DNA of 64,000 bases, from assembly GCF_902652685.1 (NCBI RefSeq), contig NZ_CACRUY010000002.1, positions 248,001-312,000 on the forward strand, read 5' to 3'. Positions within the stretch are counted from its first letter, which is position 1; every line of letters begins with the position of its first letter. Both the position numbers and the translations under genes were made by a program. Shown in pieces: positions 42,461 through 61,221 of this stretch. Under the pieces are notes generated by a model. That model was given only the letters and a program-made list of their open reading frames with translations, searched no databases and was not told where the DNA came from. The stretch is from Mycobacterium sp. Marseille-P9652. Lineage in GTDB: Bacteria > Actinomycetota > Actinomycetes > Mycobacteriales > Mycobacteriaceae.

Positions 42461-43519
42461 CTAGCGCGCGACGCGGCCGGTCACCGGCGGGAGATCGGCC
42501 AGCGTCACGATCCCGGGCCGGGCAGCCACCACCGCCGGGACGGCATTGGTAACCGGCATCGCGGTGTAAATCATTCCCAACCCCATGAACCCGGGCTCCG
42601 TCCAGTCCTTCGGCGGCAGGCAATGCAGCACGGTGCGCATGTTGGGCAGCCCGAAGACCTGGATGACGTGGCCGTGCTCCAGCGGCTTGGGCGGCACCAC
42701 GTGGCTGCCCATCGTCCAGTTGAACCCGACGCTGACCACGTTGCGATCGCCCCGCCACCCGCGGTGGTAGCCGTAGACCCCGCCGACGGTCCCCGCGGGG
42801 ATCTTCATGAAGCCCAGGTCGGAGTCGCCCGTGGCCGCGGTGAAGGTCACGTCGAAGGTCATCCGGTCCAGGCTGGCGCCGATCGCGTCGGCCATCATCG
42901 CGGCCGACTCGGCGAAGACCTCGCTCTCGCGCCGCACGCTTTCGGCGAGCCCCGGGGTATCGGGATCCTGGGAGAAGCCCATCGCGGTCTGGGTCTCCGC
43001 GGACTCGTAGGTCGAGCAGTCCACCGACTCGGTGATCCGGATCTCGTCGATGCGCTCGCAGGCGCCGGACAGGACCATTCCGACCATGTTCGTCATCCCG
43101 GGGTGCGCGCCGCTGCCGAAGATCGTCGAACCGCCGCGCTCGCAGGCGTCCTGGATGCGCCGGCGGTCCTGCAGCGTCTGCTTGCCGCCGGTGATCCAGG
43201 CCGCGCTGGAGCACACATTGACCCCGGACTCGAGCAGCCGCACGAGCTCATCGACGTTCGGCCACAAGGGGTTATAGCAACACGCGTCGGGCTTCAGCGC
43301 CAACAGGGCGTCGATGTCATCGGTCGCGTGCACGCCGGTCGGTTCCGGCCAGCCGGCCAGTTCGGCCGCGTCGACGCCGACCTTCGCGGCTCCGTGCGCG
43401 TACACCCCGACCAACTCCATGTCGGGTCGACCGATGATGGCGTGCAGCGAACGCCGCCCTATGTTGCCGGTGGTCCACTGAATGACACGCAGCGGACGGT
43501 CGGTGCTGGTTGTGCTCAT
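42461..43519 (-). CDS. NAD(P)-binding reductase of the dihydrodipicolinate reductase-like family
   Basis: A 352-residue Rossmann protein beginning VIQWTTGNIGRRSLHAII, the N-terminal cofactor motif of a mycobacterial family annotated as dihydrodipicolinate reductase-like. It is longer than true DapB (~245 residues) and has a different C-terminal half, so it is unlikely to serve lysine synthesis. Members have been linked to diverse redox steps, none proven for this one. The ATG at 43519 has GGAGC seven bases upstream. It is transcribed toward mmpS (149-base gap), so it could share a transcript with mmpS-mmpL, or lie at the end of the papA3-mmpL10 operon, 195 bases downstream of the PE-PPE gene. 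Confidence 0.75.
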   Translation of the reverse strand: MSTTSTDRPLRVIQWTTGNIGRRSLHAIIGRPDMELVGVYAHGAAKVGVDAAELAGWPEPTGVHATDDIDALLALKPDACCYNPLWPNVDELVRLLESGVNVCSSAAWITGGKQTLQDRRRIQDACERGGSTIFGSGAHPGMTNMVGMVLSGACERIDEIRITESVDCSTYESAETQTAMGFSQDPDTPGLAESVRRESEVFAESAAMMADAIGASLDRMTFDVTFTAATGDSDLGFMKIPAGTVGGVYGYHRGWRGDRNVVSVGFNWTMGSHVVPPKPLEHGHVIQVFGLPNMRTVLHCLPPKDWTEPGFMGLGMIYTAMPVTNAVPAVVAARPGIVTLADLPPVTGRVAR

Positions 43520-43714
43520 CGGGGCTCCTTTGCGCCGGTGCGACGGGAGTCATTATTGCCGCTGTATTCGGAAGCGCTCGCAGGCGGGCATGTGCATCCG
43601 GCGGGGTGGTAAGCAGGTGCGGGAGCGACCGATGGCTGCGGAAATCGCCCCATGGTCCGCGCGGTAGCTGTCACTCGATACACCCGGAGCCGCGGGAGGA
43701 AGGCCTCGCGGTCG

Positions 43715-44848
43715 TTACTGGCCCGCGCCTGTCGCAGGCGCCTCGGGTCGGTGGATGCCCTGGTTCAACACCGCCATTGCGCCGGACAGAACCTGCGAGA
43801 ACGGATCGGCGCCGCCGCCGAAGGTCGCCTGGGTCGCCGGTGCAGTGACGGCTGCGGGGTCGAACCCCCTCACCGGGTCCACTTGAACCGGAGCGGTCGC
43901 CGGATCGTCGTTTCGCGAATATCCCGCGTTCACCATCGGTGTCAGTTCCGCGTCAAGCTGATTCAGCAGGTCCTCAGACACTCCGAGATACTTCAAAGGC
44001 AATACCAGCGGAAGATGTTTTTCTGGAATCAGGTACGTCGTCGTTGTCCCGCCCCGGGAGTTAACGGTGGTCCTGATGTTCTGCGCCGGCACCATACTCG
44101 GGTTGGTGAAGGCGACCGCCGTATGACCGGTCGCGAGGCCGACGAGCGTGTTGGCGAGGGCCATCAGGTTGTCCGGTCGGTCGGGAAAGTCGGCGATCGA
44201 GTCGTATGCGGAGACGAAAACCTTCGTGTCGTATTGGCTCTCCACGGGGGGCGGTACGCGGTAGTCGAGGAAGGGAACGACACTGCCGACTGGAAACATC
44301 TCGGTCAGGAAACTCTCACCGAAGCCGTGACGCGCAATCGGGTCGCCAAATGTGCTGAACGTCAATTGGTCTGGCGGTGGCGCGGTCGGATCACTCGCCA
44401 GCCGAGCCTGCTCGGCGTCGAGCACGAGCGAACCTTCGGATAGGCCGATCGCCGTGCCCGGACCCCCTCTCCGGATCGCCGCGTCGAGGTTGTCCTGCCC
44501 GACGACGACCGACTCACCGACGCTGGGGCCGTTCACGCCCAGGCCGGGAAAGGCTTCGTCCAACCGGCTTATGCCCGGGAAGAGTCGTTCCAGCACGTGC
44601 CCCTGGACCTGCCCGGCGGGGTAGCCGACTATCTCTCGCTTCAACCCTGGGAACCACTCGGCGCCCTCGCGGCGTATGTACTCGTCGTACGGAATTCCCA
44701 AGACGTGAGCTCCGCCGAGAGCGTAGGCCGTTCCGTCGCCTGGTGTGCCGTCGGCCGGCGATTCGTCGGCCGACGCCACTCCGACTCCGAAATGACCTGT
44801 GGCACCGACGGTCACCAACGCGGTAACTGCTGCGAGTAGTTTCTTCAT
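43715..44848 (-). CDS. Secreted PE-PPE-domain serine hydrolase/acyltransferase (Chp2/TPP 'PE'-like)
   Basis: A 377-residue exported protein: signal peptide at residues 1-27 ([17 protein letters not shown], cleavage after ASA) followed by a PE-PPE domain, an alpha/beta-hydrolase fold. The nucleophile is S137 in GLSEG (GxSxG), with acid and histidine candidates in the segments DFPDRPDN and TGHTAVAF. In M. tuberculosis the homologue Rv1184c (Chp2) finishes polyacyltrehalose by moving acyl chains between lipids outside the membrane; the M. smegmatis homologue is needed for TPP. ATG 44848 has GGGAGTAGGA upstream and lies two bases after the mmpL10 stop, so the two are coupled. The name PE-PPE refers to this domain, not to an N-terminal PE domain. 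Confidence 0.87.
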
Positions 44849-44850
44849 TC

Positions 44851-47800
44851 CTACTCCCGGCTCGCTCGACTCAAGTCTGGTGCTTTCTGAGATCTCAGCC
44901 GTGACGGCCACCAACTCGCCCGTCCGACCAGCGTAGCCATTGCGGGGACCGTTATGGTCCGAACGAGGAAGGTGTCGAGCAAGATACCGATGCCGATCAC
45001 GAAGCCGCCCTGGACCACGGTTCCGATGCTGGAAAACAGGAGGCCCCACATCGAGGCGGCGAAGATCAAACCGGCCGCGGTGATCACACCGCCGGTCGAG
45101 CCCAGGGCGCGGATGACGCCGTAACGCATGCTGTGGGGAGACTCGTCGCGCATTCGCGAGACGAAGAGCATGTTGTAATCGGCTCCCACGGCGACCAGCA
45201 CCACGAACGCCAATGGCGCTACTGTCCAATGCAATCGCTGGCCGAGCGCGAGTTGAAACGTCAGGACGCCGATACCGACGGCCGACAAGTACGAAATCAC
45301 CACGGAAGCAACCAGATATATCGGTGCAACGATCGCGCGTAGCAGCGCCATCAGGGTCAGTAGGACGACGACGAGGGTTACGGCGATGATGAATCGGATG
45401 TCGTGATCGTAATAGTTGCGCGTGTCCCGCAGCGTGACGGGATATCCCGCCATCGTCACCGAGGCGTCCGCCAAGGTGGTGTTCGGTTGGGCACCCCGAG
45501 CGGTATCGGTGATCGCGTTGACCTGATCCATCGCTTCGGCGCTGAAGGGATTGAGTTTGGTTTGAACCAGGTAGCGCACCGAGTGGCCGTCCGGCGAGAT
45601 GAACGCCTTGGCGATCTTCTTGAATTCGTCCATACGCAGCAGCTGAGGCGGAATGTTGAACCCTGCCATCGACGGTTCGGCAGCATCATGTTTCATCGCC
45701 AATAGGAAAGCCGACGCGTCCCTGAGGCCGGCATCCATTTGTTTGATCTGGTCTACGAGTTGTTCCACGCCGTCAGCCAGCTGCCGGCTCCCGCCGGCGA
45801 ATCGGTCGGCGCCTTGTTGAAGGTGGGTCAGGCCCGCCTGCAGCCCACCGGGCTGGTCGAGCCCCATGGAATGCAACACCTTCACGAGGTTGGAGAGCGC
45901 ACCACGCAGCTGTTCCACCGATGCGTTGAGGGTCTGTCTGTCTTGGAACGCCTGCAGTTGCCGGGCCAGATCATTGATCTCGTCGAGGCTTCCGTCGCCA
46001 CGCGCATTGACCAGGCGCTCAAATTCGCCGCGGGTTGCGCTGCACGAGGGATCGGCATCGCAGACCGGATTACCCTGGAGTGCCCCCAACACCGGGCCCA
46101 CCCAGGCGAACATGTCCTTCATGGCCGCGAAGTTCAGGCCGATGCTATGGCCGAGCGAATTGATGCTGTTGACCAGCTTGGCCGCGGTGACGACCTCCTT
46201 GACCAACGTGTCTCCGCCATATTGGGTCTTCATGGACGAGAACGCGTCGATCAGACCCTGTATGCCGAGGGCGACCTCGTTGACCCGGCCGCGGACGTCA
46301 CCGAGATTGTCGGCCAGGGTGTTGGCGCCGTTGACCAGTCGGTTGAGGTCATCGGCGTGGTCGCTGATCTCGTCGGACCCGGCGCCCAGGCGAGCGCCGA
46401 TCGCGCCCGCCTGATATGTCGCTCTGAACTCTTCGGGCACAACGCCTCTGGGTCGGGTGATGCCCCTGACCGCGGCGATGTTCGGCAATTGGCTGACCCG
46501 GCCGGCCATTTGCTCCAAGTCGGCGAGCGCCCGCGGCGTGCGCAGGTCATGCGGTGACTGGACCAGGATGTATTCGGGAATGGACTCGTTGACGGGGAAA
46601 TGGCGATCAAGCGCCGCATACCCGACGGAACTCGGAGCGGACGACCGCAGGGCCTTGCGATCGTCGTAGTTGTAGCGAACCAAGCCGGCACAGCTGGCCA
46701 GGACGATCAGCACGAGCACGCTGGCGACCAGATGGATCTTCGGCCGGCGGACGATGCGTATTCCCGAACGCCGCCACAATCGGGCGGTCAATTCCCGCCG
46801 CGGCGTGACCCAGCCCCGTGGCCCGGCGACCGCCAGAATGGCCGGCAGCAACGTCAGCGCGGCCAGGAATACGACACCGATGCCGATCGCCGACGACACA
46901 CCGACCGTTGAGAAGACTCCCATCCGTGCGAAGCTGATGCCGAGAAATGTGATCCCGACCGTGGCGGCGGACGCGGCGATCACCTTTCCGATCGACGCCA
47001 ATGCCCGCCTCACCGCTTCATCGGAATCCGCACCGAGCCGCAGGTGGTCGTGATAGCGGCTGATGAGAAAGACCGCATAGTCCGTTCCCGCCCCGGCGAC
47101 CATCGCGCTCAGAAATACGACGGATTGGTTGGAAACGCCCAAGCCGCTGTGTTGGGAGACCGCCGCTACCACCGCCTGTGCGATCGCCATCGATATCCCG
47201 ATCGCTATCAACGGCAGCAGCATGGTGAGCGGGTTGCGGTAGACCACCAGGAGGACGGCAAGCACCAGGACGGCGATTGCAAGCTCAATCGGAAGCCGAT
47301 CCTGTTGGCCGGCGGCGGTGAGGTCAGCCACCGTGGCCGCGGGCCCGGCGAGGTGTGCGGTCAGCCGAGATCCGGCCGGCACGCGCTCCGCCGTTTGGCC
47401 GATGACCTGTTTGATGAGGGCGGCGACCCGGGTGTATGAGGCGTCGGAACGCGGAGTGCCCAACTCGCCCGCGATGCCGACGGGCAACACCCAGGATTTG
47501 TGGTCCTTGCTCGTCAGGGCCGGACGCAGGGACGGCGTGCTGACGAAGTCCTGCAACATCACGACGTCTCGGCTGTCCCCGCGCAGCGTCTCGACGAGCT
47601 TCTGGTACGCGGCCTCGTCGGGGGGACCAAGACCGTTCTCGTCGGTCAGCACCACCAGCAGAAGGTTTTCCGTGCCCGATTCGTGGAACGCCTCGGTCAT
47701 CTTTCGCGCGGCCACGCTGGACGGCGCGTCGCTGGGCAGGATGGCGAGCGGATGGCTCTCGGCCATCTCGTCCAGAGTCGGGAGCGTCAGCGGCAGTGCG

Positions 47801-47871
47801 ACCGCAATGGCGGCCCAAAGTCCTATCACCACCCAGGGCCACCGCACCACAAATTCGGCTAGCCGTCGCAA
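44851..47871 (-). CDS. mmpL10: MmpL10-like RND transporter for acyltrehalose
   Basis: A 1006-residue MmpL permease, the same size as MmpL10 (~1002), with helix 1 at about residues 12-32, proton-relay segments [15 protein letters not shown] and [14 protein letters not shown], and two large external loops. The second loop (about residues 400-780) is long, partly coiled coil, and holds a CDADPSC cysteine pair. The position between papA3 and the PE-PPE gene repeats the M. tuberculosis PAT locus and the M. smegmatis TPP locus, where MmpL10 moves the diacyltrehalose precursor across the membrane. The start is TTG 47871, the first possible codon after an in-frame stop. It needs no MmpS in those loci, and none lies beside it here. 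Confidence 0.87.
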
Positions 47872-47948
47872 TTCGGCCCCATGTCATTCACGCGTGGCTG
47901 CAGATCGCTCATTGTTGAGAAAAGCAATCGACGTCGAAATACTTCACG

Positions 47949-49370
47949 CTAGGCAACGCGTCCCCAATGCCCGCTATCGGCGACACGCGTACACAGAGAC
48001 TTCATCGCTGCCATGTAACGGGCGACCGATTTATGGGCAACAGGGTTGTCGGGGTGCATCATCGCCATTGCCGTCCCGCCCGCGTACATGAATATATACG
48101 TGGTCAACTGATACGAATATCTCCCGTCGGAATATATGCCGATGTTGTCCGCATAGCCCAAATCCGCGGCTGCAAGCACAGCATTCATGGGGGCGGCGCC
48201 CCCGTGGAAGAAATTCGACACCGGGAAGTTGGGACGAGGCCGGTCCAGCCAGGGCGCCAATTCCAATACGCGGTAATAGGGCACTCTGGCCAGGTTCAGG
48301 CTCGAATCGAAGGAAGACTGGGCTGCCCAGGCGGCGTCACCGAAAGACGCCGCGCCGATCGGCACGGTGATAGGAACCAGGCCGGTGAACCAACCCTGAG
48401 TCATGAAGTTGTCCGAAGTCCTGCGGGTGTCTCGGGGGGTGAGCCCGTAATACGTGACGGCGCCCGTGAACTCGTGTTCCACCAGGGCGATGCAGGCGAA
48501 CAGGCCGCCGACGAAACGGGCGCCGGCCGCCGCGCAGGCTGATTCGAATCTCGCCGTCTGTTCGGCGTCCATCAGCGTTTCCGTCGTCATGGCACTGACG
48601 GTCGGCTCCAACGGGTTACCCAACGGCAGGGGGAATTCGGGCAGGCCGCCATTGTTACTCTCGGCGAAGTCGATCCACGCGCGGACCTGGGGCGAATCAA
48701 TGGTCAGAGACGACACGTACCGGCGTTCCTGGAGGCAGAAATCGTCAAAGCTGCCGGCGTCCGGCAGCGCCAGCGGCTGTCCGCCTCCCGCCAGCGCCTG
48801 GTACATCGCGTGGGACTCCAGCATCGTGATGCCAACCAGCGCGGCATCGCCGTGGACGTGGTCGATGCTCGCGTAGAACGTGAAGTTGTCCGTGCGCTGA
48901 ACAATCCCGAAGGTGAAGCAACCCCACTGCAGGGGATTCGGTATGGCCACGACATGGTCGTGTAATTCCTGAGCACTCATTTCCCCATGATGGGTCGGCG
49001 CGAATTCGATATCGGCGGGGTCGTCGATGCTGTGCCTGACGACTTCTCCGCTATCGGTGTACTCGAACCAACTGCGGAACGTATCGTGCCGGCGCAGGTA
49101 AGAGTTGAGGGCGTGATTCATGGCAGCAATATCGCACCGGCCGGGCACCTCGCATGCACCGATGATTTGTCGGGAGTAGTCGAGTCCCGCCACAGTGCGT
49201 TCGTGATAGCCACGAATATGTTGCGATTGCATGTAGCTGACCGGCACAGAACTCACGGGTGCTTGCAGGGCCTTTTCCTGCGCCGCGGTTGTCGCGTGCC
49301 AGGAAGTCACCGCGCCCGGGCTCAGCGCCCAATCGCCAAGTGAGCCGATCGTGATTTTGCCGATGCGCAC
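47949..49370 (-). CDS. papA3: PapA3-like polyketide-associated acyltransferase
   Basis: PapA enzymes move polyketide acyl chains directly from the PKS carrier protein to a sugar or alcohol. This 473-residue protein is the length of PapA3 (~472), which acylates trehalose at positions 2 and 3. The condensation-fold active site is HVHGD at residues 171-175 (HxxxD); the following glycine is Ala. The N-terminus RIGKITIGSLGDW is typical of the PapA1-3 group. GTG 49370 has AGGAG seven bases upstream. It is the first gene of the minus-strand papA3-mmpL10-PE-PPE operon and is divergent from the PKS gene. The acceptor is inferred from the neighbours, not from sequence. Confidence 0.87.
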   Translation of the reverse strand: MRIGKITIGSLGDWALSPGAVTSWHATTAAQEKALQAPVSSVPVSYMQSQHIRGYHERTVAGLDYSRQIIGACEVPGRCDIAAMNHALNSYLRRHDTFRSWFEYTDSGEVVRHSIDDPADIEFAPTHHGEMSAQELHDHVVAIPNPLQWGCFTFGIVQRTDNFTFYASIDHVHGDAALVGITMLESHAMYQALAGGGQPLALPDAGSFDDFCLQERRYVSSLTIDSPQVRAWIDFAESNNGGLPEFPLPLGNPLEPTVSAMTTETLMDAEQTARFESACAAAGARFVGGLFACIALVEHEFTGAVTYYGLTPRDTRRTSDNFMTQGWFTGLVPITVPIGAASFGDAAWAAQSSFDSSLNLARVPYYRVLELAPWLDRPRPNFPVSNFFHGGAAPMNAVLAAADLGYADNIGIYSDGRYSYQLTTYIFMYAGGTAMAMMHPDNPVAHKSVARYMAAMKSLCTRVADSGHWGRVA

Positions 49371-50058
49371 TCATGGCTCCTAGGTGTGTACGGCTGCAGT
49401 GGGGCCCCGCTGGTGGCGAGATCAAGATAACCCGTTGGGCCATCACCGTTGCGGAGAATCCGCGGATACGTGTGACACCCGACGGGGGCGGCCGCCGTCG
49501 CCGCGGTGGGCCGCTCGTCGCCGAGGGGCGCCACAACTGACGGGCTCAAATTTTGGAGCGAAACGTGGCTCCTGGGTGGCCGCCCGCCCGATAGAGTGCG
49601 GGCGGCGCGCCGGTTCTACGGGTCTGCCGCGACATGTTCGGCAACTTCGCCCAACGGTACGTCTGTCTTAGATCTTGCCGCTACGCTACATATGTTGAAC
49701 AACGGATACTGGGCCCGAACTCAGGGGGTGCCCTGGCGCCTGTGCGCACGGGGCACCTCTGGTGTTCACCAGGCCGTCGACCGCGGAAGGCCAACGGAAG
49801 GCCATTGCGCGGGAAGGGGAACCGCAGGTTGCATCGTGAATCCAGCCCACCGGAGGCCGCCAACACGGCTGACGGAAAAAGCCGACTCTCGCTTGCCGAT
49901 CGCGTGGTCGTCGCACACTCGAACCGCTGAAGTCGGTTGGGTGCTTGCAGTGAGCGTTTCCGACGTGGTTGGCAACTCACGCGGCCCGGACGCGGCCGGG
50001 GCTCGCGAGCCTCGAGTCGTCGACGGATCCAATAGCGGAATATAGAGAGGACAACCGC
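49371..50058. other. 688-base divergent control region between papA3 and pks
   Basis: No convincing gene lies here; open frames up to ~180 codons on the plus strand lack ribosome-binding sites and family sequence. Both operons must have their promoters in it. Candidates are TACGCT at 49682-49687 in an AT-rich patch (CTACATATGTTGAAC) for pks, and AAGATA at 49424-49429 (TATCTT on the minus strand) for papA3. The pks ribosome-binding site is AGAGAGG at 50044-50050. I find no clear operator. Confidence 0.5.
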
Positions 50059-53000
50059 ATGGCATCTCTCGAAGACCCGATGGCGCCGGCACCGGGTTTT
50101 GCGATCGTCGGCTACGCAGTGCGCGTGCCGGGTGCTAACGATGCGGATGGATTCTGGGACATATTGCGGCAAGGGCGCGAAACGGTTTCGGAGGTACCTC
50201 AGGACCGCTGGGATGTCGACGAGTTGTTCGACCCGGATCCCGGGGCGCCCGGGAAGATCGCGACCCGCCGGGCGGGATTCATCGACGACATAGCGGGGTT
50301 TGACGCGCCGTTCTTCGGGGTGTCGACGCGCGAGGCCGAGTGGATGGACCCGCAACATCGGATGCTGCTGGAGACCGCGTGGCAGGCGCTGGAGCATTCT
50401 GGCGCCGCACCAACCAATTTGGCCGACACCAGGACCGGCGTTTTCATGGGTTTGTCGACCCATGACTACCTGGCGACGATGTCCAACGAGCTGGGCCCCG
50501 CGGAAATCGAAGCCTATTTGGCGATTGGCACGTCGGCCGCTGCGGCGGCGGGCCGGATCAGTCATCGCCTGGGACTGCAGGGACCGGCGGTCACGGTCGA
50601 TACGGCGTGCAGCTCGTCGTTGGTGGCAGTCCATCAGGCCTGCCAAGCGCTGCGCCTGCGCGAGTGCGACCTCGCGCTGGTCGGTGGCGCGAATGTCCTC
50701 ATCAGCCCGGCAACGATGATGACCTTCTCCCAATCACGGATGCTGGCCCCGGACGGCCGCTGCAAGACGTTCGACGCGGCGGCCGACGGTTACGTGCGGG
50801 GTGAGGGCTGCGGTGTCGTGGTCGTGAAACGTCTTGATGACGCGATTCGCGACGGTGACCGCATTCGGGCCGTGATACGGGGCAGCGCGGTCAACCAGGA
50901 TGGCGCATCGGGTGGTTTGACGGTGCCGAATGGTGTTGCCCAGCAACGGGTCATCGCCGAGGCCCTGCAGCGAGCCGGCGTCGCGGCCGGCGATGTCGGA
51001 TATCTGGAAGCGCACGGGACCGGCACATCGCTGGGTGACCCAATCGAAGTACAGGCCGCGGCCGCGGTACTCGGCGAGGGGCGCGACCCCGGCGCGCCGC
51101 TGCTGATCGGTTCGGTCAAAACGAACATCGGGCATCTGGAAGCCGCCGCGGGGATCGCGGGGCTGGTCAAGGTCATCCTGTCGCTCGAGCACGAAGTGTT
51201 GCCGAAGCACTTGAATTTTCGCAACCCGTCGCCGCACATACCTTGGAACCGGCTTCCGGTGCGGGTCGTGGACGAGACGACTGCATGGGAACGCAACGAT
51301 CGACCTCGTGCCGCGGGCGTCAGTTCTTTCGGGTTCTCCGGCACCAACGCGCACCTCATCGTCGAGGAAGCGCCCTGTCAAGTGGGCCAGTTCGGCGGGG
51401 CGCCTGCTCCGACCGGGCAGTCCACGGACCGACGGTTCAGCGTGCTTCCACTCTCCGCGCGCAGCCCGGCCGCATTGGTGCAGCTGGCCGATCGGTACCG
51501 CTGCTGGTTGAGCGCGCATCCCGAGGCCGCGTTGTCCGATGTGTGCTTCACCGCCGGGGCGGGGCGATCCCATCTGGAGCACCGGGCCGCGTTGGTGGTG
51601 AATTCGACGGAATCCGCGCGTGAGTTACTCGGTGCGCTGGCCGACGACCGCCCGGCACCGGGTTTGGTGCGGGGCGTGTGCGCCGACAAGCCGCAGACGG
51701 CATGGTTGTTCCCGGGTCAAGGCAGCCAGTTCGCCGGGATGGCCCGAGAGTTGTTCGAGAGCGAGCCGGTGTTCGCCGAGACGATGACCCGGTGCGCCGA
51801 GGTGATCGATGGCGTGCTCGAAAAACCCTTGCTGAACGTGGTTTTCGATTCGGACGGCCCAGACAGCCAAGAGACCTTGCGGCAAACATGCTATGCCCAG
51901 CCGGCCTTGTTCGCGATTGAGATGGGCCTTGCCAGACTTTGGCAGTCGTGGGGCTTCGAGCCGGACGTGGTTATCGGCCACAGCGTCGGCCAATACGCGG
52001 CCGCCTGCGTCGCGGGCGTCTTCGGTCTCGAGGACGGAGCCATGTTGCTGGCCGAGCGCGGCCGCCTGTTCGGCAGTTTGCCCCCCGGCGGCCGCATGGT
52101 CGCGGTATTCGCTGCCGGCGAGCGCGTGGAAGGCCTGACCGATACGTTTCCGAGCTTGTCGGTGGCCGCGTACAACGGCGCCAATACCGTGCTGTCGGGA
52201 CCCGCGCAGGACCTGGACCGGGCGGTGGCGGGACTGGAGGCGGACGGTGTGCGCTGTGACTGGCTGGATACCAGTCATGCCTTCCATTCGGCGCTCCTGG
52301 ATCCGGTCCTCGACGAATTCGAATCGTATGCGAACGGGTTCCAGTTCCGTTCGCCACAACGAACATTGGTGTGCAATCGCACCGGCACCGCCCTGGGCAG
52401 AAATGCAAAACTGGACGGCGCCTATTGGCGCGGCCACGCCCGGCAGCCGGTCGAGTTCGCCAAAAGCGTGCGCACCCTGGCCGATCTCAGGTGCACGCTG
52501 CTGCTGGAGGTCGGTCCGCAACCGGTGCTCGCCGCCGCAGCCCTGCGTGCGTGGCCTGACCCGGCAACCGCACCACGGGCAATCGCCTCGTTGCGCCGCA
52601 ACACCGCCGACCACCGCCAGATCACCGACGCCCTGGCCAATGCCTACGTGATGGGGCACCGGCCCGACTTCACTGCCCTGCAGCACGGACGCGCACACAA
52701 GCTCGACCTACCCACCTACCCCTTTCAGCATCGCCCGTACTGGTTCCGCGAGCAGCGGATCGCGCGCACCCGGATCTCCGACCAGAGCGCAGCCACGCGC
52801 ACCGAGGCCGTCCGGCTTCTGGAAGACGGCCGGATCGAGGAGCTCGCCGCGCAACTCGACGGCGGCAGCGGCGATCAGCACACCGTCGATGTGCTGAAAC
52901 AGCTCGCCGCACAACACAACCAGCAGCGTGAAGCGCAATCCATCACGGACTGCCGTTACGAGATTCGCTGGGACAAATCCGCTGTCAAGGCCTCAGAGGC

Positions 53001-56000
53001 CGCCCAGGCGGAACTTCCCGGGGGTTCTGCCTGGATCCTCATCGGCGACGATGCCGATGCCATCAAGCCATTGGTCGGCGCGCTGACCGCCCGCGGGCAC
53101 CGGCATCGCATCCTCGGACTGCCAGCCTCCGACGTCGACGAGGAAAAACTCGAAGCTACGTTACGTGCTGCGGTGGCGGACGAACCGACGACCCGAATTC
53201 TGCATCTCGCGGCGCTCTCGGTCGGAACATCGTCGACGCAGTCGCTGCTGCGGATGCAACACCGAATCGTCGGCGGGACACGGCGACTCTTGCGCGCCGC
53301 GGCCGCCGCCGAACTCCGCACAGCCATTTGGGTGCTGACCCGCGGAGCGCAGCGGGTCACCAGCGGCGACACGGTGTCACCGGTGCAATCCTGCATGTGG
53401 GGGCTCGGTCGTGCCGCCGCGCTGGAATATCCGCGACTGTGGGGCGGACTGGCGGATCTTCCAGACGATGGTCCCTTGGAAGAGGGTGTTTGGACGCGAT
53501 TGATCGACCACCTGATGGCTGCACCGCGCGCCGAAGACCAAGTCGCGCTGCGCGATCAAACGGTTTATGTACCTCGGCTGACCCGGCGCGCCGGGCAGCC
53601 GATCGCGACACCGTTGGAACTGCGTGATGACGCAACATATCTGGTGACTGGCGGCCTGGGCGGGGTCGGATTGGAAATAGCCGGATACCTGGCTGCGCAC
53701 GGCGCCGGCCACCTGCTGCTTGTCGGCCGACGCCCGCCTCGTGATGCCGTGCAACAGCGCATCGATGCGATTCGCGAACAGCACGGCTGCGAAATCCGCG
53801 TCATCGCCGCCGATGTCGCCAATCCGCACGACGTCGCACGTCTTTTGGGCACCGTACACAGCGAGCTACCGCCGCTGGCCGGCATCGTGCACGCCGCGGG
53901 AGAGATCAGCTCAACACCGCTACAAACGTTGGAGGACGCCGAAGTAGATCGAGTGTTCGCCGGGAAGGTCTGGGGCGCTTGGTATTTGAGCGAAGCCACC
54001 GCGGACATTCCGTTGGACTTCTTCCTGAGCACCTCCTCGATCTCCGCGGCATGGGGCAGCTTCGGCCAGGCCGCGTACAGCGCGGCCAACGCCTTTCTCG
54101 ACGGGCTGGCCCGGCGGCAGCGCGAGCAGGGCATCCCCGGCATCAGTGTCAGTTTCGGCCCGTGGGGGTCGGCGGGCATGGCCGACGCGGCCGCCCGCGC
54201 GGAACTGGAGAAACGAGGAGTCAAAACGTTGTCTCCCGCCGATGCGTTGGCGGGGATGGCCGAGCTCATGGTGGCTTCGTCAGGAAAAGGCGCAGAAGGG
54301 ATTGTGGCACGGATCGACTGGGCCAGCTTCGTGCCGCTCTACCAACTGGCCGGGAAGCGGTCGTTCCTGGAGGAGCTGGAGCGGGAGGTGCCCGAGTCGC
54401 CAGCGCTCACGTCGCCCGGAACCACCCGACTGGTGGAGCAGCTCACCATGGCTCCGGCGCAGCAGCGGAAGAAACTCGTCGTGGACTACCTGCGCGGCGT
54501 GGTAGCCGAGGTGACACGGATCGATGCGGCGGAAATCCGCGACGAGGCCGGGTTCTTCGATGTCGGTATGGATTCGCTGATGGCCGTTGAACTTCGGCGA
54601 CGGGTGGAGCATGCCGTGGGCAAGGAGCTGCCGGCGACTCTGGCGATGGACTATCCCCGTCTGGTCGACGTGGCGGACTACCTGCTCTGTGACGTCCTCA
54701 GCATCGGCGCACAGGCTGCCAGTTCGGACGCCGATTCGAGTGCCACTTTGGCGGCCCGGCGGGGCCCCGCAACGACCCCACTTACATCAGGACGCACGGA
54801 CGAGCCGATCGCCATCGTCGCGGTGGCCTGCCGCTTCCCCGGTGCGCCCGACCCCGAGGCGTACTGGGAGTTGCTGTCGGCCGGTGTCGATGCGATCCGG
54901 GAGATCCCGGACGACCGCTACGACGTCGACGAGTATTTCGACCCGGACCCCGAGACGGCGGGCAAGACCTACAGCCGCTTCGGCGGATACCTCGACCGAA
55001 TCGACGGATTCGATCCGGAATTCTTCGGCATCTCCCCGCGCGAGGCCGTATGGATGGATCCGCAGCAGCGGTTGATGCTGGAAATCGCGTGGGAGGGCCT
55101 GGAACGCGCCGGGTATTCGCCTACGGCGTTGCGTGGCAGCCGAAGCGGCGTGTTCGTCGGCGTGGCCGCAAACGAGTATTCGCATCTGCTGTCCGCCAAC
55201 CCAATCGAGACCCTGGAAGCACATTTCATCACCGGCAATGCGCTCAATGCCATCGCGGGTCGTGTTGCCTTCGCACTCGGGCTGGAAGGACCGGCGATGG
55301 CGGTGGATACGGCATGCAGCGCGTCGCTGGTGGCCGTCCACCAGGCATGCCAGGCGTTGCGCACCGGTGACTGCGACCTGGCGCTGGCAGGCGGGGTGAA
55401 CGTTTTGCTGAGCCCAGCATCGATCGTTGCCGCCTCACGCGCGGGGATGCTGTCCCCGGACGGTCGATGCAAGACGTTCGACGCTGCCGCCGACGGCTAC
55501 GTGCGCAGCGAGGGATGCGGGATCCTGGTGCTCAAGAGGCTCGGCGATGCCGAGCGCGACGGCGATCGGATTTGCGCGGTCATCCCGGGCAGCGCGGTCA
55601 ATCAGGACGGCGCGTCCAGCGGTTTGACCGTGCCCAACGGGGGTGCGCAGCAACGGCTTATCGCGGCGGCGCTGGCTCGTGCCGGTATCGAGGGGCGAGA
55701 TGTCGACTACCTCGAGGCGCACGGGACCGGCACATCGCTCGGTGACCCGATCGAGGTCCAGGCCGCCGCAGCCGCCTACGGTGGCGGCCGCGACGCCGAC
55801 CGCCCGCTGCTGCTGGGCTCGGTGAAGACCAATATCGGGCACCTCGAGTCGGGGGCCGGAATCGCCGGTCTGATCAAGGTCGTGTTGTCTTTGCAGCACG
55901 AGGTTCTGCCCCAGAACCTGCACTTCGAGGAACCGTCGCCGCATATTCCGTGGGACTCGTTGCCGGTGCGGGTCGTTGACAAGGCGATTCCCTGGCAAGC

Positions 56001-59000
56001 CAACTGCAAGCCCCGACGCGCCGGGGTGAGTTCCTTCGGATTCACCGGAACCAACGCACACGTGATCATCGAGGAGGCGCCGCGCCGAGCGGCAAGCGCC
56101 GACGAATACACCCCGGACGACGCCGTCCCTGACGTCTTTCCCGGTGTGGATGAGGCGCCGGAGTCGGAGGCATCGGGCGAGCCGGTCAGCGTGTTGCCGC
56201 TATCGGCGCGCTCACCCCAGGCGTTGATGGCGTTGGCGCAGCGTTATGGGGCCTGGTTGGACGCGCACCCCAAGGCCGACATCACCGATGTGTGCTTCAC
56301 GGCGGGGGTCGGGCGTTCGCATTTCGAACACCGGGCCGCGATCGTCGTGGATTCGGGCGGCGGTTCAATCCAGGCCGCTCGCGAGTTGCTGACCGAATTG
56401 TCCGAGAATCGGCTGCGACCGGGCGTGGTACGCGGTGAGTGCGCCGACCCGCCGAGGACGGCGTGGTTGTTCACCGGGCAAGGTAGCCAGTACCCGCGGA
56501 TGGCGCGCGAGTTGTTCTACGCCGAACCGGTTTTCGCCGAAACCGTGACGCGATGCGCGGAAGCGGTGGATGGGATGCTCCCGCATCCGTTGCTGGAGGT
56601 GCTGTTCGGCGCCGACCGGGACAGCGCAAAGATGTTGCGCCATACCTCGTTTGCTCAGCCGGCGCTGTTCGCAGTGGAGATGGGCCTGGCACGGCTGTGG
56701 CAGTCGTGGGGCATCGAACCCGACGTGGTGCTCGGGCACAGCGTGGGCCAGTACGCGGCGGCGTGTGTGGCCGGCGTCTTCAGCCTCGAGGACGGGGCAC
56801 GACTGTTGGCCGAGCGTGGCCGGCTGTTCGGCAGCCTGCCCGAGGGCGGGCGGATGGTGGCGGTATTTGCCGACCCCGAGCACGTGGAGGCACTCGCCCA
56901 CGGATTTCCGCGGGTTTCGGTCGCTGCCTACAACGGCCCCAACACGGTGTTGTCCGGGCCCGGCACGGATCTGGAACAGATCGTCGCCACATGCAGCAAT
57001 GACGGGATCCGGTGCTCGTGGCTGGACACCAGTCACGCCTTTCATTCGGAGTTGCTGGAGCCGGTGCTGGACGAGTTCGAGTCGTGTGCGGCTCGGGTGC
57101 AGTTTGCCGTGCCGGAGCTGCCGTTGGTCTGCAACCGGACCGGCGCGGTGCTCACCGCGGAAAACCCACCGGACGCACAGTATTGGCGGCGGCATTCCCG
57201 CCAGCCGGTGCAGTTCGCCGACAGCGTCCGCACCGTGGCGGCCCTGCGCTGCTCGGTCTTGATGGAGATCGGACCCCAGCCGGTTCTGACCGCGGCTGCC
57301 GTTCAGGTGTGGCCGGAATCCGCGGCCGCGCCGCGCGCGATCGTTTCCCTGCGCAAGGGCACCGACGCGCGCCGCCAGACCGCAGAAGCGCTGGCCGCGG
57401 CCTATGTCGCCGGGCACCGGCCCGATTTCGCCGCACTGCATCACCAGCCGCGCCGCAGGCTCGAACTACCGACATATCCGTTCCAGCGCCGTCACTTCTG
57501 GCCCAAGGTTTCGGGCCTCGCCGTTTTGGACTCACACGGTGCCGCCGTATCCGGGATCCTGGGCAGCGCAAAGGATCTCGCCTCCGGGGACTCCGTGTAC
57601 ACCAGCCGGTGGTCCATCAAATCGCAGCCGTGGCTGTCGGATCACGTCATCTATGGAACCGTTGTCGTTCCGGGAGCGACGTACGCGGCGATGGCGATTG
57701 CCGCGGTCGGGACGCCGGCGCAGGTGCACGATGTCTTCTTCTACGAACCGATCATTCTGGGCGACAAGAGTTCCCGGGAGGTGCAGCTGACCGTGCATCC
57801 GGTGGGGGACGGTGGCGGCCGGACCTTCCAGGTACACAGCCGTCCATACGGTGAGCGAGACGCCGAGTGGTCGTTGAACGCCGATGGCCGGATTGTCAGC
57901 GGCGCCGACCAGGGCCTGCCGGTGGAGCCCGCATCGGAGCCGACATCGAATCCGACGGATTCCGTGGATGCCGCGTGCGAGCGGATGAGCCGCAAGCGTC
58001 CGCAGGAGCTGTTCGGCATTTTCGCCGACATGGAGCTGGCGTGGGGCCCCACCTGGTCCACTTCCCTCAAATCGCTGTGGGCCGGTGACGGCGAGGCGGT
58101 TGGCGACATCGTCGTCGGTGACGAGCTCGCCGAACAACTCGGAAGCGAGCCGATCCATCCGGTGCTGCTGGACCTGTGCACCGGAATCGCCTTCCCGGCC
58201 TTTCCCGCGGTTCTCGCGGCAACCGAGGATGGCGGCCTCATGGGGGATCTTTTCTTGCCGCTGCGGTATGGGCGGGTGGCGCTGCGCGAGAAGATGCCGC
58301 GGCGGTTCTACTGCCGTGCGCGTTGGCAGTCCGGCGGTGTCGACAGCGAAACGCAGGTCTTCGACCTTGATTTCGTGGATCGGGACGGTCGGCAGTTGGG
58401 CGAAATCAGCGGCTTCACCGTAAAGCGCGCCCCCCGGGAAGCTTTGTTGCGCGGGCTCGGCGGCGATGCCAGCCGGAACCTGTACACCCTCGGCTGGCAG
58501 GAAACGCCGCCGGCGGCGTCAGGCGACGTTGCCGAGAGCGGCGACGGCACCTGGCTCGTCATCGGGTTTGACGACCTCGCGGCCGAGCTGCCGGGTTCCA
58601 TTGTGTTGCAACGTGACTCGATCAATTCGCTTTCAGAGGATCCGGGAGCGTGGGAGCGGCTGTTCGCACAGGCTCGGGAGCGCGGTGCCCCGGTCTCCGG
58701 CATTGTCTGGCGCAGTACCGGCCGACCGCGCACAGAAGAATCGACGGTCGAATTCGCCGGGCGGTTGGAGACGGAGATCGACCAGCTGCTCACAATCGCG
58801 CAAACACTTTCGGCGCAGCAAGACGTGAAACTCACCGGAGGATTGTGGATCGTCACCGGACGGGCCGTGGCGACCGAACCGGGCGAGCCGGTCGACCCGG
58901 CGCAATCGGCGCTGTGGGGATTCGGCCGTACCATGATCGCCGAGCAGCCGTCCCTGCGTTGTAGGTTGGTCGACTGCGACGATTTCGACGATGCCGTGCG

Positions 59001-61221
59001 ATTGCTGACCGGGCTACTCGGCACGGTGGACACAACTCTTTCCGAACCCGAACCCGAACCCGAACTCGCACTGCGACAAGGCAAGTGCTTGGTGCCGCGG
59101 CTGGTGCCATGGGCGCGCGGCGGCCCGCTGGCGGTACCCCGCGCGACCGATTACATCCTGGCGCCGACCGAACGGGGCGCGATCGACAACCTGCGTCTTG
59201 TCGAGACGGAAGTGTCGCCGCCGATGGCGGGCCATGTGCAGATCCGCGTAGAGGCCGCGGGCCTCAACTTCCGGGACGTGCTCAATGTGCTCGGCCTCTA
59301 CCCAGGCGATCCTGGGATGATCGGTGGTGACCTCTCCGGCGTCGTGACGGAGTTGGGAGCCGGCGTTACCGAATTCGAGTTCGGCCAGCGGGTTTTCGGC
59401 TTCATGCCGGGTGGATTCGCCACCCGTGTCAACGTGCCCGCCCAGTTCCTGTCGGCGGTGCCGAAGGGGCTGAGCGCGGTAGCGGCGGCCACGATACCCG
59501 CCGGGGCGCTCACGGCCCGGCTTGCATTTGACTGGGCGAAGGTGCGGCCCGGTGACCGCGTGCTCATCCACGCCGCAAGCGGGGGCGTCGGACTGGCCGC
59601 GATCCAGTTGGCACAGCAGCGAGGTGCGACCGTCTTCGCCACCGCCAGCGCCTACAAACGTGCGGCGCTGCGCGAGATGGGCGTGGAACACGTGTACGAC
59701 TCGCGCAGTACGGATTTCGCGGATCAGATTTTGGCGGACACCGGCGGCTCGGGCGTTGATGTGGTGCTCAACAGTCTGACGAACGAGGGATTCATCGCTG
59801 CGACCGTGCGCGCTACCGCGCAGGGGGGCCGGTTCGCCGAGATCGCCAAGCGCGACATCTGGTCTCCGCAGCAAATGGCGGCGGCTCGTCCCGATATCGA
59901 TTACGAGATCATCGCGCTGGACGGGTGCATCGAGCGAGAGCCCGAGCGGGTGGGGAACCTGCTGGCGGAGCTGGCCGACAGTATGGCCAGCGGCGAGCTG
60001 GCCCCGATCGCGGCCGAGGTCTACCCGTTGACTGAGGCCAAGGCCGCATTCCGTCGCATGCAACAGGCGCGGCATATCGGCAAGATCGTGCTGCAGATGC
60101 CGAAACCGCTACAGCCGCACCACGATCGGAGCTATCTGATCACCGGTGGTCTCGGTGCACTCGGCCTGAACACCGCCGCTCACCTGGCCCAACTCGGGGC
60201 GGGTGACATCGTGCTGACCAGCCGGCGCGCGCCCGACGGTGACGCACAGCGGGCGATCGCTGACATCACCGAGCGCTACCGGTGCCGCATCCACACCTTT
60301 GCCGCCGATGTCGGGGACGAGGCCCAGGTCGCCGAGCTGCTGGAGCGGATCAGGACGGAGTTACCGCCGCTGGCTGGGATAGCCCACCTGGCGGGAGTGC
60401 TCGACGACGCGCTGCTACCGCAGCAGAGCCTGGAACGCTTCCGAATGACATTGGCTCCCAAGGCATTGGGCGCGTGTCACCTGGACCGGTTGACGAAGAA
60501 CGACGATCTGGACTTCTTCGTCGTGTACTCTTCGGCTTCCAGCGTGCTCGGTTCGCCCGGTCAGGCCAACTACTCGACCGCCAATGCGCTGCTCGACGGG
60601 CTCGTTGCGGAGCGCAGGGCGAAAGGCCTGCCCGCGACCAGCGTCAACTGGGGTCCCTGGGCGAAGGGTGGCATGGCCACTTCCCGCGCCGCGCGGGCCA
60701 ATCTCAGTGCGCAAGGCCTGATTCCGTTGGAACCGGCTGCCGCCCTCGCGGCGCTCGACGACATCATCGCGCACGGGACGTCGCAGGCCACCGTCATCAA
60801 AGCCAATTGGCAGCGTGCCGCGAAGAGCGGCCTGGGCGCCTCGCGCCCGTCGATTCTCGACCACGTTCTGCCGAGCGCTGTCGCGGCGACACCCGGGGAC
60901 AGCGAGTTGCTCCGGCAACTGCAGGAGGTGCCTGAGGCGCAACGCGGCAGTTTCCTCACCGAATACCTACGGTATGAAGTACAGAGCTTCCTCCGGCTCG
61001 CACAACCGCCGGCCGCGACCAGCCGGTTCTTGGACCTGGGCACCGATTCGCTGATGGCGGTCGAATTCAGCAATCGGTTGGTCCCCCAGTTCGGGGGTGC
61101 GTTCGCGATCAGCGCGACCGCGTTATTCGACTATCCGACGATCGGTTCGCTCGCCGAGTACCTGGCCAGTCAGGTGCCGGAACGGCCCGATACGGATCCT
61201 GGCGCGCCCGACGCCGCGTGA
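50059..61221 (+). CDS. pks: Bimodular type I polyketide synthase (TPP/phleic-acid-type)
   Basis: A 3720-residue synthase: module 1 is KS (C184, H319, H359), AT (S642), KR (from residue 1195, Y1340) and ACP (S1506); module 2 is KS (C1753), AT (S2228), DH (H2529 in HVIYGTVVVPG, D2705), ER (GGVGLAAIQ near 3175), KR (from 3359, Y3505) and ACP (S3664). Both AT domains carry HAFH (740-743 and 2326-2329) and GHSVG, the malonyl-CoA pattern, so no methyl branches are expected. Module 1 has no dehydratase: the stretch from about 900 to 1190 is a KR structural domain. No thioesterase ends the protein, which fits release by PapA3. Size and partners match the PKS for phleic acids in M. smegmatis TPP. ATG 50059 has AGAGAGG upstream. 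Confidence 0.9.
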   Translation: MASLEDPMAPAPGFAIVGYAVRVPGANDADGFWDILRQGRETVSEVPQDRWDVDELFDPDPGAPGKIATRRAGFIDDIAGFDAPFFGVSTREAEWMDPQHRMLLETAWQALEHSGAAPTNLADTRTGVFMGLSTHDYLATMSNELGPAEIEAYLAIGTSAAAAAGRISHRLGLQGPAVTVDTACSSSLVAVHQACQALRLRECDLALVGGANVLISPATMMTFSQSRMLAPDGRCKTFDAAADGYVRGEGCGVVVVKRLDDAIRDGDRIRAVIRGSAVNQDGASGGLTVPNGVAQQRVIAEALQRAGVAAGDVGYLEAHGTGTSLGDPIEVQAAAAVLGEGRDPGAPLLIGSVKTNIGHLEAAAGIAGLVKVILSLEHEVLPKHLNFRNPSPHIPWNRLPVRVVDETTAWERNDRPRAAGVSSFGFSGTNAHLIVEEAPCQVGQFGGAPAPTGQSTDRRFSVLPLSARSPAALVQLADRYRCWLSAHPEAALSDVCFTAGAGRSHLEHRAALVVNSTESARELLGALADDRPAPGLVRGVCADKPQTAWLFPGQGSQFAGMARELFESEPVFAETMTRCAEVIDGVLEKPLLNVVFDSDGPDSQETLRQTCYAQPALFAIEMGLARLWQSWGFEPDVVIGHSVGQYAAACVAGVFGLEDGAMLLAERGRLFGSLPPGGRMVAVFAAGERVEGLTDTFPSLSVAAYNGANTVLSGPAQDLDRAVAGLEADGVRCDWLDTSHAFHSALLDPVLDEFESYANGFQFRSPQRTLVCNRTGTALGRNAKLDGAYWRGHARQPVEFAKSVRTLADLRCTLLLEVGPQPVLAAAALRAWPDPATAPRAIASLRRNTADHRQITDALANAYVMGHRPDFTALQHGRAHKLDLPTYPFQHRPYWFREQRIARTRISDQSAATRTEAVRLLEDGRIEELAAQLDGGSGDQHTVDVLKQLAAQHNQQREAQSITDCRYEIRWDKSAVKASEAAQAELPGGSAWILIGDDADAIKPLVGALTARGHRHRILGLPASDVDEEKLEATLRAAVADEPTTRILHLAALSVGTSSTQSLLRMQHRIVGGTRRLLRAAAAAELRTAIWVLTRGAQRVTSGDTVSPVQSCMWGLGRAAALEYPRLWGGLADLPDDGPLEEGVWTRLIDHLMAAPRAEDQVALRDQTVYVPRLTRRAGQPIATPLELRDDATYLVTGGLGGVGLEIAGYLAAHGAGHLLLVGRRPPRDAVQQRIDAIREQHGCEIRVIAADVANPHDVARLLGTVHSELPPLAGIVHAAGEISSTPLQTLEDAEVDRVFAGKVWGAWYLSEATADIPLDFFLSTSSISAAWGSFGQAAYSAANAFLDGLARRQREQGIPGISVSFGPWGSAGMADAAARAELEKRGVKTLSPADALAGMAELMVASSGKGAEGIVARIDWASFVPLYQLAGKRSFLEELEREVPESPALTSPGTTRLVEQLTMAPAQQRKKLVVDYLRGVVAEVTRIDAAEIRDEAGFFDVGMDSLMAVELRRRVEHAVGKELPATLAMDYPRLVDVADYLLCDVLSIGAQAASSDADSSATLAARRGPATTPLTSGRTDEPIAIVAVACRFPGAPDPEAYWELLSAGVDAIREIPDDRYDVDEYFDPDPETAGKTYSRFGGYLDRIDGFDPEFFGISPREAVWMDPQQRLMLEIAWEGLERAGYSPTALRGSRSGVFVGVAANEYSHLLSANPIETLEAHFITGNALNAIAGRVAFALGLEGPAMAVDTACSASLVAVHQACQALRTGDCDLALAGGVNVLLSPASIVAASRAGMLSPDGRCKTFDAAADGYVRSEGCGILVLKRLGDAERDGDRICAVIPGSAVNQDGASSGLTVPNGGAQQRLIAAALARAGIEGRDVDYLEAHGTGTSLGDPIEVQAAAAAYGGGRDADRPLLLGSVKTNIGHLESGAGIAGLIKVVLSLQHEVLPQNLHFEEPSPHIPWDSLPVRVVDKAIPWQANCKPRRAGVSSFGFTGTNAHVIIEEAPRRAASADEYTPDDAVPDVFPGVDEAPESEASGEPVSVLPLSARSPQALMALAQRYGAWLDAHPKADITDVCFTAGVGRSHFEHRAAIVVDSGGGSIQAARELLTELSENRLRPGVVRGECADPPRTAWLFTGQGSQYPRMARELFYAEPVFAETVTRCAEAVDGMLPHPLLEVLFGADRDSAKMLRHTSFAQPALFAVEMGLARLWQSWGIEPDVVLGHSVGQYAAACVAGVFSLEDGARLLAERGRLFGSLPEGGRMVAVFADPEHVEALAHGFPRVSVAAYNGPNTVLSGPGTDLEQIVATCSNDGIRCSWLDTSHAFHSELLEPVLDEFESCAARVQFAVPELPLVCNRTGAVLTAENPPDAQYWRRHSRQPVQFADSVRTVAALRCSVLMEIGPQPVLTAAAVQVWPESAAAPRAIVSLRKGTDARRQTAEALAAAYVAGHRPDFAALHHQPRRRLELPTYPFQRRHFWPKVSGLAVLDSHGAAVSGILGSAKDLASGDSVYTSRWSIKSQPWLSDHVIYGTVVVPGATYAAMAIAAVGTPAQVHDVFFYEPIILGDKSSREVQLTVHPVGDGGGRTFQVHSRPYGERDAEWSLNADGRIVSGADQGLPVEPASEPTSNPTDSVDAACERMSRKRPQELFGIFADMELAWGPTWSTSLKSLWAGDGEAVGDIVVGDELAEQLGSEPIHPVLLDLCTGIAFPAFPAVLAATEDGGLMGDLFLPLRYGRVALREKMPRRFYCRARWQSGGVDSETQVFDLDFVDRDGRQLGEISGFTVKRAPREALLRGLGGDASRNLYTLGWQETPPAASGDVAESGDGTWLVIGFDDLAAELPGSIVLQRDSINSLSEDPGAWERLFAQARERGAPVSGIVWRSTGRPRTEESTVEFAGRLETEIDQLLTIAQTLSAQQDVKLTGGLWIVTGRAVATEPGEPVDPAQSALWGFGRTMIAEQPSLRCRLVDCDDFDDAVRLLTGLLGTVDTTLSEPEPEPELALRQGKCLVPRLVPWARGGPLAVPRATDYILAPTERGAIDNLRLVETEVSPPMAGHVQIRVEAAGLNFRDVLNVLGLYPGDPGMIGGDLSGVVTELGAGVTEFEFGQRVFGFMPGGFATRVNVPAQFLSAVPKGLSAVAAATIPAGALTARLAFDWAKVRPGDRVLIHAASGGVGLAAIQLAQQRGATVFATASAYKRAALREMGVEHVYDSRSTDFADQILADTGGSGVDVVLNSLTNEGFIAATVRATAQGGRFAEIAKRDIWSPQQMAAARPDIDYEIIALDGCIEREPERVGNLLAELADSMASGELAPIAAEVYPLTEAKAAFRRMQQARHIGKIVLQMPKPLQPHHDRSYLITGGLGALGLNTAAHLAQLGAGDIVLTSRRAPDGDAQRAIADITERYRCRIHTFAADVGDEAQVAELLERIRTELPPLAGIAHLAGVLDDALLPQQSLERFRMTLAPKALGACHLDRLTKNDDLDFFVVYSSASSVLGSPGQANYSTANALLDGLVAERRAKGLPATSVNWGPWAKGGMATSRAARANLSAQGLIPLEPAAALAALDDIIAHGTSQATVIKANWQRAAKSGLGASRPSILDHVLPSAVAATPGDSELLRQLQEVPEAQRGSFLTEYLRYEVQSFLRLAQPPAATSRFLDLGTDSLMAVEFSNRLVPQFGGAFAISATALFDYPTIGSLAEYLASQVPERPDTDPGAPDAA

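Follow-up and report, generated by a model that had tools for sequence, protein, structure and literature searches.

M. smegmatis, M. abscessus and M. avium are among the mycobacteria reported to contain trehalose polyphleates (TPPs) (PMC5524727), and a TPP-type locus in the mycobacterium analysed here is therefore in itself ordinary. TPPs are described as surface lipids that are required by phages BPs and Muddy and tied to the fitness of M. abscessus (PMC10465359, PMC11633156). The locus described below resembles those of M. smegmatis (MSMEG_0408-0412) and M. abscessus, in which pks, papA3, mmpL10 and PE are clustered and, according to the same reports, PE acts as a transacylase outside (PMC10465359, PMC11633156). 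Unlike those loci, which include fadD23, it has no such gene. In the account given in PMC10465359, a fadD23 mutant of M. smegmatis lost TPP incompletely, possibly via some other AMP ligase. The DAT/PAT system of M. tuberculosis (pks3/4, papA3, mmpL10, chp2 and fadD21) is alike in its cytosolic diacyltrehalose, in the role of MmpL10 and in transesterification outside, but differs in using methyl-branched acids and in requiring FadD21, without which, as that work describes it, no DAT or PAT was detected in M. tuberculosis (PMC4183827).

Layout and assignment of the locus

The window is a stretch of 64,000 nucleotides, positions 248001-312000 of contig C2 in the genome of Mycobacterium sp. Marseille-P9652 (G000; 5.7 Mb in 128 contigs, completeness estimate 100%), and the relatives of its sequence are mycobacteria. 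Three of the genes form an operon on the reverse strand, papA3-mmpL10-PE, with gaps of 77 and 2 bp. The first, papA3 (47949..49370), codes for a predicted condensation-fold acyltransferase of 473 residues (PF00668, E 5.1e-16) of the type termed B below, with the HxxxD motif at residues 171-175 and PapA2 (6aef, 497 bits) as its nearest solved structure. It is followed by mmpL10 (44851..47871), for a putative RND-type lipid transporter (PF03176, 1.3e-174; TIGR00833, 904.8 bits) in which two DY pairs are found (D264 and D898), both DY motifs being kept in 75 of 75 aligned MmpL10 proteins. The last gene, PE (43715..44848), codes for a predicted secreted PE-PPE-domain transacylase of 377 residues (PF08237, E 1.7e-70; NF041570 'acyltransferase PE', 640.9 bits with a cut-off of 580). 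Its translation and an alignment with 12 relatives place the start at 44848 and not at 45229; the N-terminus looks like a signal peptide by eye and the GLSEG motif is present, while a comparison of PE with the PDB gave no match at E 0.001. Divergent from papA3 across a 598 bp intergenic region (49371..49968) that presumably holds the promoters is pks (49969..61221, forward strand), which codes for a bimodular polyketide synthase of 3750 residues if translation begins at the first possible start; the actual one is perhaps slightly downstream. All four genes are open frames, and chance is excluded by the family scores together with the gene order conserved in loci of named species.

Pfam and NCBIfam domains and motifs give the Pks modules as KS-AT-KR-ACP followed by KS-AT-DH-ER-KR-ACP, the single DH stretch and the single ER stretch found by Pfam both lying in module 2. 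A DH in module 1 had no Pfam match; a special loss of this domain was nevertheless rejected, as the module-1 stretch aligns with that of other TPP-locus Pks proteins. Both AT domains read GHSVG and HAFH, a combination that we take to be the malonyl-type signature. In an alignment with 21 related Pks sequences the motif residues are intact among those displayed, and the active-site motif of KS2 reads CSAS, with the cysteine present, as it also does in three paralogues. Whole-Pks identity to 18 other TPP-locus Pks proteins is 71-80%. A further match to module 1 of the TPP pks was noted in another genome (G187:C1:3820622-3821326), in an open frame of 5750 aa about 20 kb from the first; it is perhaps a larger relative.

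To the left of the locus lie a gene for a DAP_DH_C-family dehydrogenase (42461..43519, reverse strand; PF19328; GC3 0.92) and, at 38935..42311 on the same strand, an mmpL4-type transporter gene (PF03176) with a small mmpS-like gene, the names mmpL4 and mmpS being assumed here; the synteny of both features is common with slow-growing relatives. The right neighbour (61613..63784, forward strand) codes for a PE protein that, from its translation, is Gly-rich with MPTR-like NxGxGN repeats (NF052352 over residues 12-106, far below the model cut-off). It sits between pks and acyl-CoA dehydrogenase-like genes and was unmatched in eight relatives (L216-L223) with low-complexity masking on. Elsewhere in the window ARAGORN called a 97-base tRNA-Gly (tcc) at 21238-21334, inside a predicted coding frame (20384-21490), which is probably a false call.

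The loci of named species used for comparison are the best 80 of 200 by PE alignment, that is, the most similar ones and not a random sample. In these loci pks is divergent from papA3, with mmpL10 and then PE following, the latter two being separated in some by fadD23 or by other genes; PapA3, MmpL10 and PE are full-length in 78 of 86 rows. Where a protein is present, identity to the window is 70-84% for PE, 68-84% for MmpL10, 67-79% for PapA3 and 74-81% for KS1-AT1 of Pks. Because the locus thus shares 67-84% with TPP-type loci of named species as against 47-60% with PAT-like and SL-1-type controls, we assign it on sequence to the TPP type, a known kind. This agrees with the initial annotation, which gave the right coordinates for the locus and had also correctly read an operon of PapA3-sized, MmpL10-sized and secreted PE-PPE hydrolase genes, with a bimodular PKS, malonyl-type in its ATs, running divergently from it. 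The locus holds a bimodular pks with malonyl-type ATs, orthologs of PapA3 and MmpL10 and a predicted secreted PE transacylase. The gene set listed by that annotation, however, includes fadD23, usual in the cluster and absent here. We conclude that the organism probably makes trehalose polyphleate. Its acyl chains had been called unbranched, which fits the AT motifs but is incomplete, the chains expected of TPP being described as polyunsaturated phleic acids together with a single straight chain (PMC11633156). That the lipid would be finished outside the membrane follows from the PE signal peptide and from the work on PE and Chp2 reported in PMC11633156 and PMC4183827.

FadD23 in the locus, the genome and the genus

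Most sampled slow-growing relatives carry fadD23 at a site that here consists of 195 bp (43520..43714) with no remnant of the gene. A tblastn search of the window with FadD23 at E <= 10 gave one chance match (E 3.2), inside pks, and none in this gap. Throughout, a FadD23 ortholog is defined by similarity of 69% or more to a single query, the FadD23 of locus L029. By this measure there is no ortholog in genome G000, where the best FAAL (on contig C9) reaches 57% and the next two, both FAAL-PKS fusions, 56% each. A FAAL tree built from 44 chosen sequences unites 17 FadD23 proteins in one clade (0.82), and the five FAALs of G000 fall outside it. A relocated FadD23 in this genome was rejected on both counts. 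The C9 FAAL is nearest to the solved FadD23 structure 8hd4 (798 bits). Another FAAL of this genome, at C2:197665-199392 (L127), is fused to a PKS that has a YASH-type AT, in a frame of 3228 aa. It lies some 100 kb to the left of the TPP pks, and M. terramassiliense (G076:C12:2314012) has a comparable FAAL-PKS frame at about the same distance.

Of the 80 named loci 59 have a fadD23 ortholog within or next to them, 58 of these genes scoring 69-100% to that of L029 (L029 included) and one, in L055, being cut by a contig end. Three loci (L086, L088 and L095) have a reversed FAAL at 57-58%, and 18 have no FAAL, as in the window. The flanking dehydrogenase gene comes directly after PE in the fadD23-less slow growers. 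In the 13 fadD23-less genomes reached via the named loci the best FAAL scored 51-64%, as against 77-100% in four controls. Across a genus sample of 148 genomes PE was found at E <= 1e-150 in 101 (99 of them above the model cut-off), and a FadD23 ortholog was present in 71 of the 101 and lacking in 30. The first scoring covered nine candidates per genome; a recheck of all 30 fadD23-less genomes (22 with 62 candidates each, the other eight in separate comparisons) found no FAAL above 64%. All 30 have kept pks, so the loss of fadD23 has not been followed by loss of the pathway. The pks frame is at least 3650 aa long in 26; the short frames of the other four (1519-2831 aa) are possibly due to assembly or sequencing error. 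Among the titles and abstracts listed by literature searches we found none on fadD23-less TPP loci or their transfer.

It can be seen that these 30 genomes, whose loci we term type B, are not uniform in their FAALs: ten have one beside PE (58-61%), five have one elsewhere (62-64%) and 15, G000 included, have neither. In the first ten the gene runs on the opposite strand near PE, at 726-751 bp from it in nine and at about 5 kb in G004, and in those genomes type B is therefore not ligase-free. Including the named loci, this FAAL of about 572 aa (57-61%) was found in L086, L088 and L095 and in G004, G009, G018, G024, G083, G092, G130, G168, G181 and G186. It is possible that it is an in-place substitute for FadD23, and it might also be a strongly diverged FadD23, its placement in the FAAL tree having a support of 0.35. 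In five genomes of the scrofulaceum group a FAAL at another site is sister to the FadD23 clade (1.0). For M. scrofulaceum itself (G065), two FAALs passed E 1e-80 among the 80 of 113 candidates that were scored.

A serious alternative is that type B has a dedicated ligase, namely the FAAL beside PE, and that the lineage of the window has lost or moved it. The same place and strand in ten of the 30 type-B genomes, and the presence of the gene in the three named loci, speak for this, but in the other 20 genomes, G000 among them, it does not lie beside PE, and the FAALs of G000 fall in other clades of the FAAL tree. We would bet against this explanation while taking it as plausible.

Two proposed lines of the locus and the probable history of the window's copy

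We found that the PapA3 tree splits by fadD23 status with no errors in 80 rows (branch support 1.0), the window's PapA3 falling in the fadD23-less clade with support 1.0, and that the tree of Pks KS1-AT1 does the same in 74 rows (branch support 1.0). One seeming exception in the Pks tree, M. genavense L041, was dropped, its row being only 13 residues long; a stop follows 13 residues from the match start in this pks, presumably through a broken start or a sequencing error. The trees of PE (87 rows) and MmpL10 (80 rows) each have seven misplaced rows, those of the fadD23-less M. deserti, M. pinniadriaticum and their kin. Changes of fadD23 status on the all-row trees number one each for PapA3 and Pks and three each for MmpL10 and PE. 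AU tests on smaller trees rejected monophyly of the fadD23-less loci with MmpL10 (p 3.9e-5) and with PE (p 6e-4), and monophyly of the fast growers with PapA3 (p 2.2e-4) and with Pks (p 0.013). All trees were made with FastTree or quick IQ-TREE runs. Since fadD23 lies beyond mmpL10 and PE in most sampled slow growers, plain linkage with papA3-pks explains the pattern poorly; as papA3 and pks adjoin and may be co-inherited, the match of both with fadD23 amounts to fewer than two independent facts. We infer two lines of the TPP locus, A with FadD23 and B without it, with recombination between species.

The residues that differ between the types lie in PapA3 at 98, 166, 169, 181 and 243, those at 166, 169 and 181 being within six residues of the HxxxD motif, and in KS1 at 209, 246 and 457 (strict in 19 full Pks sequences), residue 209 being near Cys214. 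Pks and PapA3 of type B may thus be adapted to another acyl supply. The closeness of these residues to the PapA3 motif and to the KS1 cysteine would also suit the alternative that the product of type-B loci is an acyltrehalose other than TPP, another starter supply altering the chains or their number; DAT/PAT, as described in PMC4183827, shows a similar gene set serving other chains. Against this, the domains and AT motifs are the same as in type A, and the window's Pks lies within the 71-80% identity given above, which makes a different product unlikely. The notion that the locus is decaying, with the loss of fadD23 as the first step of pathway loss, could draw on the 30 of 101 genomes without an ortholog and on the four short pks frames, if these are not errors. 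It is nonetheless improbable, given that pks is kept in all 30 genomes and is full-length in 26, that the catalytic motifs displayed for the window are intact, and that the fadD23-less PapA3 clade spans many species, which we take to make it too old for plain decay.

The gene trees are discordant also in the placing of the window's copy. In a tree of PapA3, MmpL10 and PE together it joins the gordonae, asiaticum and scrofulaceum groups in a clade of 16 loci (0.995), none of which, L170 included, contains a FadD23 ortholog. The flank tree sets gordonae and asiaticum apart, places the scrofulaceum group among fadD23-bearing species and puts the window near M. bohemicum, M. paraense and M. interjectum with weak support (0.2-0.9). 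The window's NadE is closer to that of M. paraense and M. terramassiliense (92% identical) than to that of gordonae and asiaticum genomes (85-86%); PE runs the other way, with 74-76% to the paraense/terramassiliense side and 82-84% to gordonae/asiaticum. PapA3 identity on its own is not reversed, being higher with the interjectum/paraense group (76-78%) than with asiaticum/gordonae (71-74%). The flank tree places the two M. nebraskense loci (L059 and L060) with the scrofulaceum group, the locus tree elsewhere. GC3 is 0.775 in the TPP genes against 0.928 in the flanks (z -4.4 relative to 44 other loci), and the codon use of the window's copy looks foreign.

Gain of a whole foreign island is not favoured: the genes of the right flank (acyl-CoA dehydrogenase-like, holA-like and rpsT-like, named by eye) lie behind pks in seven of eight relatives (not in G023), and the left flank is common with slow growers. 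As both flanks are syntenic with relatives, replacement by recombination fits better, and we conclude that the locus was probably replaced in this way at its old site. That there was no recombination, the tree conflicts arising from unequal rates and composition, is very improbable: the GC3 contrast of locus and flanks is of a kind that can mislead trees, but the AU rejections were obtained on protein trees and the two M. nebraskense loci change place between flank and locus trees.

The genome holds a second bimodular pks (C16:41946-53018), for a protein of 3690 aa that is 78% identical to the window's Pks. Its neighbours code for a FAAL-PKS fusion, a glycosyltransferase, AT3-SGNH acyltransferases, a methyltransferase and two NRPSs of 1582 and 4184 aa, the longer seen by adenylation matches only. 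This cluster (C16:28000-72000; L152-L154), in which the AT motifs of the FAAL-PKS fusion read GHSQG and YASH, is largely kept in M. paraense (G017) and M. terramassiliense (G076), with NRPSs 76-77% identical. It is perhaps a lipopeptide or glycolipopeptide cluster, whose product, at a guess, would be a lipopeptide with a phleate-type chain. In segment trees the window's Pks behind residue ~2500 groups with this NRPS-linked synthase (support 1.0) and KS2-AT2 with the TPP pks of G023 (0.87), while module 1 groups with both (0.83 with the second pks type, 0.74 with G023). With the breakpoint at residue 2500, picked after inspecting the trees, sites of paralogue-only and donor type number 16:70 before it and 21:15 behind it (Fisher p 2.8e-5). 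The pks of the window thus looks like a mosaic with a tail resembling that of the NRPS-linked paralogue. Against a clean mosaic stand the 15 donor-type sites beside 21 of paralogue type in the tail, and the leaning of module 1 to the paralogues too (0.83).

Proposed pathway and comparison with known systems

Our main reading, to which we give a probability of about 0.72, is that the window carries a working TPP-type locus of the second line, type B, without FadD23. Product, starter-loading route and order of transfers would then be as follows. A fatty-acyl starter would reach the bimodular Pks from a FAAL of another lipid pathway or as acyl-CoA; in G000 the supplying FAAL is perhaps that of the pks2-type locus on contig C9. 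Pks would alternate its two malonyl-specific modules to yield a long unbranched polyunsaturated acid of phleic type, PapA3 would load acyl chains onto trehalose in the cytosol, MmpL10 would export diacyltrehalose, and the secreted PE would move acyl chains between diacyltrehaloses outside. The present locus would have come to its conserved site through recombination between mycobacteria.

More tentatively, and at somewhat less than even odds, the results may be read jointly as TPP synthesis in two co-adapted lines. The type-B KS1 and PapA3 would be tuned to a non-FadD23 acyl supply (in some species from the FAAL next to PE, in others, the window's included, from no neighbouring ligase), the pks-papA3 pair would have moved between fast and slow growers, exporter and outside finishing enzyme would have histories different from that of the pair, and a lipopeptide (NRPS) cluster would have acquired a synthase of this kind. 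The 30 of 101 sampled genomes with a TPP-type PE and no FadD23 ortholog are a natural counterpart of the fadD23 mutant. With type-B species the list of stand-in ligases becomes shorter, so that the question of starter loading can be tested. It also follows that fadD23 serves poorly as a marker for TPP.

That the locus is itself of the M. tuberculosis DAT/PAT type deserves hardly any credence and was rejected, for although the same four gene families are clustered, the window's Pks is bimodular with malonyl-type HAFH in both ATs and not a monomodular methyl-branched-type synthase, whereas the locus that we call PAT-like by our own inference (L196) has a monomodular PKS without HAFH and a PapA, MmpL and PE only 55, 60 and 52% identical to those of the window. 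The SL-1-type locus of the same genome, of the pks2 family (C9:40000-58000; L125, L126), is alike in keeping a FAAL, a PapA, an MmpL and a PKS (2103 aa) together. It differs in that its PKS passes the Pks2-type model NF041183 with 3945 bits, where the window's Pks fails (1905.9 bits, cut-off 2400), and in that its PapA and MmpL are each 48% identical to the window's (range 47-48%); SL-1 cluster membership was rejected on these grounds.

Within the TPP-type loci, PapA3 and KS1 of the window fall in another clade than those of the sampled fadD23-bearing loci, a sample made up of named species other than M. smegmatis and M. abscessus. The window is like the fadD23-less loci of M. gordonae, M. asiaticum, M. 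scrofulaceum, M. europaeum and M. parascrofulaceum in gene order and left flank, with PE 79-84% identical, and unlike them in the NRPS-paralogue-like tail of its pks and in the PE/MPTR gene behind it; its GC3 contrast is larger than in the 44 loci measured. What is new here is a variant of the TPP-type locus that is without fadD23 and otherwise intact, pointing to two lines of the pathway.
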